Assembly (NCBI RefSeq): GCF_001989615.1
Contig: NZ_CP019067.1
Coordinates: 1,488,001 to 1,552,000 of the forward strand
From: Halorientalis sp. IM1011
GTDB lineage: Archaea > Halobacteriota > Halobacteria > Halobacteriales > Haloarculaceae
Direction: 5' to 3'
Length of the DNA stretch: 64,000 nt
Shown here: positions 19,107 through 19,831 of the stretch, in pieces
How positions within the stretch are numbered: position 1 is the stretch's first letter
How the letters are laid out: each line of letters starts with the position of its first letter
Notes under the pieces: model-generated
Told to the model about the DNA's origin: nothing
The model's database searches: none
The model's input: the letters and a program-made list of their open reading frames with translations, nothing else
Position numbers and translations under genes: made by a program

Positions 19107-19403
19107 GGACTGGCGAATCGTTCTCCGTAGAACTGCGCCGATTGCTCGTTTCGCTCACGGGTCACTGCGTTCCCCGTTCGCCCACCGAGGCGCTCACTCC
19201 GTTCGCGCCTCGCAATGCGCCGGCCGGGAGTTCACCGAGCACCGCGAGGTGAACGCCGACCGACTACGTCGGTCGGAAATTGAACCGGATGGAGACGTTC
19301 CGGGCCTGTGGCCTCGCTCTGCTCGGCCATTCCGGGCTGCGACTCCCAGGGTTCAATCCCTGGCCTGCTCGTACGCGACGCTCACTGGAGTTCGCGTCGG
19401 TAC
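19107..19403. other. Non-coding stretch with stem-loops and tRNA-like debris
   Basis: No convincing gene. It holds four stem-loops: 19157-19177, 19186-19212, 19309-19329 (11-nt loops) and 19376-19399 (12-nt loop). It also holds a 14-bp copy of the 3' end of tRNA-Gly (19216-19229 equals 19404-19417), a T-arm-like hairpin CCAGGG-TTCAAT-CCCTGG (19346-19363) and a further T-arm-like string near 19277-19290. The content looks like remains of tRNA duplication or integration. Confidence 0.6.
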
Positions 19404-19639
19404 TGCGCCGGCCGGGAATTGAACCCGGGCTATGAGCTTGGGAAGCTCATGTCCTACCACTAGACCACCGGCGCTCACATCCGTTCGCGCCGAGCCTCGC
19501 TTCACTGCGTTCAGCGAGACACCGGCACTCGTTCGTTCCTCACTCGCGCCGAGCCCTGCGTCGCTTCGCTCCGCAGGACACCGGCGCACTTCGCTCACTT
19601 CGTTCGCGTCCCGAGCGCCACCTCGTTTCACTCGGTGGC
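19157..19639. repeat. Array of eight stem-loops with shared loop and differing stems
   Basis: Stem pairs: ACGGG/CCCGT (19157-19177), CGAGGCGC/GCGCCTCG (19186-19212), TGGCC/GGCCA (19309-19329), CGACGC/GCGTCG (19376-19399), CGGCGC/GCGCCG (19469-19492), CTCGCT/AGCGAG (19496-19518), CCTGCG/CGCAGG (19555-19577), GCCACC/GGTGGC (19617-19639). Loops are 11 nt (12 in the fourth and fifth) with consensus TCRYTNCRYTC. The last three are each 23 bp and are followed directly by ACACCGGC. Stems differ but all pair perfectly, which points to structure rather than sequence being conserved. Confidence 0.7.
19404..19474 (-). tRNA. tRNA-Gly (anticodon CCC)
   Basis: Reads on the minus strand as a full cloverleaf of 70 nt plus discriminator A: acceptor GCGCCGG/CCGGCGC, D arm with AGTGGTA, anticodon stem TGAGC/GCTCA around loop TTCCCAA (anticodon CCC), and T arm CCGGG-TTCAATT-CCCGG. 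No CCA is encoded. There is no intron. It is embedded in the stem-loop array, and one array stem (19469-19492) overlaps its 5' end. Confidence 0.93.
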
Positions 19640-19831
19640 ACACCGGCACTCGGTTCGAGGTACCTCGTCCCGGCACTTGAACGTAGCGCTTCGCCCGACA
19701 ACTCCCGGTGATCGTTGCACGTCGGTAAGCCGGGGCAAACCAGACCGTCGGCACGCCGATCGTCGTGAAACCGTTGCAGGCCGTTGCTATTCCGTATATA
19801 ACCAAGCCGCCGTCGTCCTTTGAAATGGTGC
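19475..19831. other. Non-coding region upstream of tRNA-Gly and the DUF4397 gene
   Basis: The first 165 bp hold four of the array stem-loops. The sequence ACCGGC recurs at 19467, 19521, 19580 and 19642 (spacing 54-62 bp); it equals the reverse complement of the tRNA 5' end GCCGGT, so the array may have grown from partial copies of the tRNA start. The remainder (19660-19790) shows no gene. A TATA box, TATATA at 19795-19800, serves the next gene. Confidence 0.55.

Follow-up and report, generated by a model that had tools for sequence, protein, structure and literature searches.

Hairpins with a fixed cap and freely variable stems form an intergenic family in haloarchaea

Around a tRNA-Gly(CCC) gene of Halorientalis sp. 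IM1011, short stem-loops follow one another at close spacing, each perfectly paired and each with a stem of its own sequence. This raises the question of what unites these hairpins, and of how arms that differ from copy to copy are kept complementary. An earlier note, made from the letters alone, had described eight stem-loops within positions 19157-19639 of the window (the whole 64,000-nucleotide stretch that was analysed) and a ninth at 2439-2463, with a constant 11-nt loop (12 nt in two cases) fitting TCRYTNCRYTC. Every one of the nine was found, and the family proved real, with stems that vary and stay paired. Under a strict definition (a GNA triloop, inner pairs and a stem of at least 5 bp), the window holds six hairpins, whereas the mean over 300 order-2 Markov shuffles was 0.003 and no shuffle held more than 1, so that the enrichment over shuffled sequence on which the earlier note had staked the family lies far above chance. 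A covariance model, the training sequences of which include the strict hairpins, returned eight matches in the window (E <= 0.0053).

The cap and its setting at tRNA-Gly(CCC)

Read on the minus strand, TCRYTNCRYTC becomes GA-RY-GNA-RY-GA, in which the two RY steps are mutually complementary. The supposedly unpaired 11-mer is itself base-paired: its complement, GA-NN-GNA-N'N'-GA, consists of an internal loop of GA opposite GA, in which the G.A pairs are probably sheared, followed by two covarying pairs and a GNA triloop. The cap is closed by a C-G pair, or by T-A in a minority of copies, and below it the outer stem is Watson-Crick and freely variable, with many pair types at every position and conservation limited to the tip. 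The proposed loop pattern does occur, but its RY steps are too narrow, as the inner pairs found (GC/GC, AC/GT, GT/AC, CC/GG, and CT/AG) include CC/GG and CT/AG.

The same architecture emerged from searches of wider scope. In a motif-free hairpin survey of 800 kb, loops of length 11 stood out by recurrent related sequences, including GACCGAAGGGA and GACCGCAGGGA, both of which lie outside the pattern of the earlier note. A scan over topologies gave clear enrichment only for an outer stem with a 2x2 internal loop, 2 bp and a triloop; within this topology GA/GA made up the internal loop in 42 of 137 cases per strand, with 9 for the runner-up, and most triloops were GNA. In the intergenic DNA of a 1.6 Mb scan, the combination of 2x2 GA/GA, 2 bp and GNA was counted 57 times, against 3 for the next. 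A stem of at least 5 bp was present in 46 of 159 flush inner-paired cores versus 2 of 1165 cores without inner pairing, and this association, like the cap grammar itself, was reproduced in three relatives. The comparison of paired with unpaired cores outweighs an alignment of 40 hairpins (98% paired cells; covariation score 1.10 vs 0.2 shuffled), because the stems of that alignment were chosen as Watson-Crick.

All features of the window that are described here are on the minus strand unless stated otherwise, e.g., the capped hairpin at 2439-2463 (7-bp stem, core GAGCGCAGCGA), which a stop codon precedes by 15 nt on the sense strand, and the tRNA-Gly(CCC) gene, at 19404-19474, whose ends were copied. 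On the downstream side of this gene are two capped hairpins at 19157-19177 (5-bp stem, core GAACGCAGTGA) and 19186-19212 (8-bp stem, core GAACGGAGTGA), an exact 14-nt copy of the tRNA 3' end (TCCCGGCCGGCGCA, 19216-19229), and, on the plus strand and thus opposite to the others, a hairpin at 19230-19254 with a 7-bp stem and the tip GA-GC-ACC-GC-GA, the loop of which is not GNA. A palindrome comes next, with a direct copy of the tRNA T-arm as one arm (GGTTCAATTTCC, 19276-19287), an inverted copy as the second arm (GGGATTGAACCC, 19349-19360), and at its centre a hairpin with a 5-bp stem and the tip GA-GC-AGA-GC-GA (19309-19329), the core of which is one base off the loop pattern of the earlier note. 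The first hairpin past the tRNA 3' end (19376-19399) has a 6-bp stem and a 12-nt tip, GA-AC-TCCA-GT-GA. Past many tRNAs of this genome, the first 3' hairpin carries another recurring tip, approximately GA-AC-AATCC-GT-GA (e.g., C1:138574-138646 and C1:2520058-2520129), with the GA/GA step of the family and a loop of 5-6 nt.

At the 5' end of the gene, the first 6 nt of the tRNA form one arm of a hairpin at 19469-19492 (6-bp stem; 12-nt tip GA-AC-GGAT-GT-GA). Three capped hairpins of exactly 23 bp, each with a 6-bp stem, then follow at 19496-19518 (stem CTCGCT, core GAACGCAGTGA), 19555-19577 (CCTGCG, core GAGCGAAGCGA) and 19617-19639 (GCCACC, core GAGTGAAACGA). After each comes ACACCGGC, which is the reverse complement of the tRNA-Gly 5'-end copy (GCGCCGGTG); these 5'-end copies are located at 19519-19526 (GCCGGTGT), 19578-19587 (GCGCCGGTGT) and 19640-19647 (GCCGGTGT), respectively. 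A hairpin of the second type in the array, with a 3-bp stem and the core GAACGAAGTGA, lies at 19592-19608. Upstream of the hairpin array and outside it, a box (GAAGCGCTACGTTCAAGTGC / GAARCGCTACGTTCAAGTGC, 19673-19692) is conserved before tRNA-Gly(CCC) in most of the orthologous loci read; at a guess, it is perhaps the tRNA promoter, in which case the array would sit inside a long leader.

Distribution among genomes and beside tRNA genes

About 110 copies of the family are present in this genome, nearly all of them intergenic (113 covariance-model matches at E <= 1). The scan of haloarchaeal genomes that had been proposed as a check found the family across them, with matches in 34 of 39 relatives (E <= 0.1); family size ranges from dozens to more than 100 copies per haloarchaeal genome, often arrayed beside tRNA genes. 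By nadE, the nearest neighbours put the organism within or close to Halorientalis. Across the phylum, sampled evenly, the majority of Halobacteriales genomes had 3-47 matches and nearly all others 0-3. The sole sampled genome outside Halobacteriales with several matches (G085) had seven, for which transfer or convergence is possible.

For this genome the statistics on genomic context cover 1.6 Mb, and for three relatives 0.4 Mb each (1.2 Mb in total); the gene calls come from a codon-model script of our own. Among flush hairpins whose stem reaches 5 bp or more, 45 of 46 fall between genes, in DNA of which the intergenic share is about 12%. An enrichment near tRNA genes, which had been suggested for counting, was borne out, as 14 of 48 hairpins lie within 300 nt of a tRNA versus 5.8% of intergenic bases, with tRNA genes called by ARAGORN, which may include a few false ones. 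Eleven of these 14 are on the strand of the tRNA; many hairpins are antisense to both flanking genes.

The earlier note knew of no named family with such traits, and none has come to light since: in the stretches scanned with Rfam covariance models only tRNA exceeded the gathering scores, and a description of the hairpins was not found in the open-access literature searched. They represent an order-wide class of structured non-coding sequence that is apparently undescribed. What defines the class is the geometry of the cap, not the sequence of the stem, which is why ordinary repeat finders miss it. In this genome, a recurrent module of the form AGCATCCGCG-[cap]-GCGCGGTTCAC ... [cap hairpin]-CTTTTTCGCCCACGTTT was also seen at C1:1439263, 1459919, 1573264 and 1670203; its T5C resembles a Haloferax termination motif.

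Each tRNA end is copied next to its own gene and hardly ever elsewhere. A direct copy of the 3' 11-mer occurs in 10 of 30 own flanks and in 2 of 870 other flanks, and an inverted 9-mer of the T-arm in 30 of 95 own flanks and 13 of 5948 others; the latter counts are non-independent via orthologous flanks, yet the contrast is large. In many species of Halorientalis, Haloarcula and Haloferax, the tRNA-Gly(CCC) locus, which is syntenic among them, has as many as four units upstream of the gene. Each unit comprises a 5'-end copy of the tRNA, a capped hairpin whose stem varies and a complementary segment, and another cap is often present. Downstream of many tRNAs lies a palindrome, sometimes in tandem, which is made up of an inverted T-arm, a capped hairpin and a direct copy of the tRNA 3' end. 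The inversion covers only part of each tRNA end, namely the T-arm, and a full zigzag fold-back of the entire end therefore fails in its simple version. Most hairpins have no tRNA copy. The family may explain how the flanks of tRNA genes grow and change.

Two further tRNA loci were noted. At G000:C1:2363340-2363960, four units of about 110-130 bp lie in tandem behind a tRNA-Leu(TAA) gene, each closing with a nearly identical copy of the tRNA 3' end; units 1 and 3 match exactly, and paired stem changes distinguish units 2 and 4. About 31 tRNA genes lie on one strand within 6 kb (G000:C1:2239040-2244716), whereas chromosomal tRNAs are otherwise scattered; this cluster looks like a virus- or plasmid-derived array.

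Stem variation, strand and candidate explanations

Stem variants between constant flanks are available from g19, a Haloferacaceae-like genus, possibly Halorubrum. The pattern GCGAGGGA-N16-46-GAGGCTGGGGAGGCG occurs 58 times in one g19 genome and 8-78 times in six congeners, with no matches in controls, and related sequence is found on plasmids of Halorubrum, Halobaculum, Halorussus and Natrinema. Nearly all of the 118 distinct inserts that were taken from copies among the matches listed form complete folds, and most of their tips are GNA triloops with a C-G or T-A closing pair. Their cap orientation relative to the flanks is almost fixed, and therefore one strand matters. Where two variants differ by two letters in the stem, the differences fall at mutually paired positions in 86 cases and elsewhere in 2, and 36 of the paired differences are C-G to G-C flips, for which there is no wobble path; as the variants are related by descent, these counts are not independent. 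Such perfectly paired variants between constant flanks make an old question about stem upkeep directly testable, i.e., selection along a wobble path versus template switching in one step. In g19, the variable capped hairpin is one stem of a dispersed, intergenic repeat, about 300 nt long, in which several stems are nested (GGTGGCGCGTGCC ... GGCTGGGGCTTCGG, e.g., G025:C1:335230-335284 and flanks); the repeat is given with at least 58 copies per genome (flank-pattern counts 8-78) and has no match in Rfam.

The stems change both partners together with hardly any wobble, unlike tRNA stems: the ratio of G.U to A.C mismatches is 3:8 and 18:11 in the hairpins (small counts), compared with 25:2 for the acceptor stems of tRNAs (pooled P 0.0005). 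The hairpins are a haloarchaeal intergenic family made for one strand, with a fixed cap strand. Tentatively, and at close to even confidence, they are regarded here as structured hairpins of single strands in which hairpin-templated (template-switch) copying keeps the two arms complementary, and some of which serve as RNA 3'-end hairpins. This copying is inferred from the patterns. The cap would be a DNA mini-hairpin of high stability, formed whenever its strand is single, during replication or when displaced in transcription; a polymerase would then switch templates across the cap and copy one arm from the other, which would yield stems of arbitrary sequence and repair mismatches in one event. 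Beside tRNA genes, the same switch could turn tRNA ends into palindromic tandem units. Hairpins located on the sense strand just past stop codons, sometimes before a T-run, would act as 3'-end or terminator hairpins in RNA. These two layers, template-switch writing and repair plus partial use at RNA 3' ends, are favoured because the loops are of DNA type, wobble is scarce, sense strand and T-runs are biased, and cap orientation is almost fixed.

That template switching creates and keeps hairpins has been argued from other organisms (PMC8794818), and arms that change together without wobble intermediates, as the non-independent variants do, are what it predicts. The paired changes and the tRNA-end copies favour a copying process acting on structure, which the earlier note had suggested as an alternative to selection. 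Several observations run counter to the favoured reading. The bias to the sense strand and the fixed orientation of the cap relative to the flanks show strand-specific use, which template switching in its plain form, able also to invert loops, does not predict; at the tRNA-Gly locus, Haloferax species show only slow change of the stems; and tRNA ends are inverted in part. A bolder version, in which snap-back copying is ongoing, i.e., strands folding at GANNGNANNGA self-prime or switch templates and neighbouring sequence is written back as complement, building arbitrary capped hairpins as well as palindromic tandem arrays of tRNA ends, is rather doubtful; if true, it would amount to structure-templated genome change seeded by one recurrent cap.

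A considerable possibility is that selection at the RNA level alone accounts for the hairpins. The GA strand would be transcribed, the hairpins would be structures of 3'-UTRs, terminators or pre-tRNA leaders and trailers, the tandem-GA/GNA tip would be a stable RNA cap, and ordinary compensatory mutation would maintain the stems. Of the hairpins that have a stop codon no more than 40 nt away, 15 are sense and none antisense; T-runs after the 3' arm stand at 9:1, and as noted most tRNA-proximal hairpins share the tRNA strand. RNA folding predicts a stable GA strand, stronger than its complement, and some Haloferax 3' ends are hairpins, one of which directed termination in a reporter (PMC7237163). 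The family may indeed account for part of the 3'-end hairpins in haloarchaeal transcriptomes. TTTT, however, lies within 12 nt of only 9 of 76 hairpins, which makes T-run terminators a minority class. Against selection in RNA alone, G.U is almost missing and not in excess over A.C, unlike in tRNA; UUCG is absent among the loops and GNRA barely present; many hairpins are antisense to both neighbours, and all 11 of those assessed in one genome (G025) are more than 100 nt from any stop codon. The palindromes that copy the adjacent tRNA's own ends are left unexplained as well.

It is unlikely that the cap is a site on single-stranded DNA recognised by a putative haloarchaeal protein (recombinase, primase, nucleoid or repair protein), with the units beside tRNA genes as its substrates or footprints. 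A fixed cap strand with a variable stem is also seen in structure-read sites, and the direct tRNA 3'-end copies at unit borders, like the tandem units at tRNA-Leu, resemble attachment-site duplications; yet a candidate protein was not found, Y1 transposases do not track the hairpins, the integron integrase (TIGR02249) exceeded its cut-off in 0 of 39 genomes and was not found in this one, and the tRNA copy is missing at most hairpins. Integron-like cassettes are rejected on the same missing integrase. CRISPR- or casposon-like arrays, considered for the repeated tRNA 3' ends, were set aside, because the spacers there consist of homologous palindromes instead of random sequence.

Spread as REP-like mobile palindromes by a Y1 (RAYT or IS200/IS605) transposase is very improbable. 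The copies are short, extragenic, palindromic and numerous, sometimes in arrays, but they have no stem consensus, and Y1 counts do not follow hairpin counts, contrary to the transposase-linked spread that had been proposed: G005 and G025, with 120 and 45 hairpins, have no Y1 gene (PF01797), and G030 and G032 carry Y1 genes with 3 and 0 hairpins. Chance or codon bias in high-GC sequence, for which it could be said that bare TCRYTNCRYTC occurs 285 times in the genome, many times stemless within coding sequence, is practically eliminated by the shuffles and the intergenic location given above, and by the near absence of the family elsewhere in the phylum.

Relation to known systems

The tip of the family, in which a C-G pair closes the GNA triloop and two or more pairs lie beneath, is that of the d(GCGAAGC)/GNA mini-hairpins, which are extraordinarily stable in DNA (Hirao, Yoshizawa, cited in PMC4686876); these are described on synthetic or isolated oligonucleotides, whereas here the tip is a recurrent genomic cap, joined by a GA/GA internal loop to an outer stem that varies. 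Quasi-palindrome template switching (PMC8794818, PMC3820800) likewise predicts perfect arms, paired multi-base changes and the creation of a stem in one event; such mutations are known as sporadic, and here they are proposed to recur, seeded by one cap across an order. The 3'-end hairpins and T-stretch terminators of Haloferax volcanii (PMC7237163) are likewise haloarchaeal hairpins, located near RNA 3' ends; some family hairpins precede a T-run, but most have none, and the part of that paper available does not describe the cap grammar.

Among repeats, REP/BIME elements with RAYT are likewise short, intergenic, palindromic, arrayed and of many copies, but have a conserved stem sequence and a Y1 transposase, in contrast to free stems with no Y1 link. 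Integron attC sites are also single-strand hairpins read by structure, with variable tips and tandem units with repeated arms; the present family differs in having neither integron integrase nor gene cassettes, and in arms that are copies of the tRNA T-arm. The PATEs and small mobile repeats of Haloquadratum (PMC3119063) are, like this family, haloarchaeal non-coding repeats with palindromes, but they are longer and, unlike it, have a link to IS605-type transposons or terminal inverted repeats.
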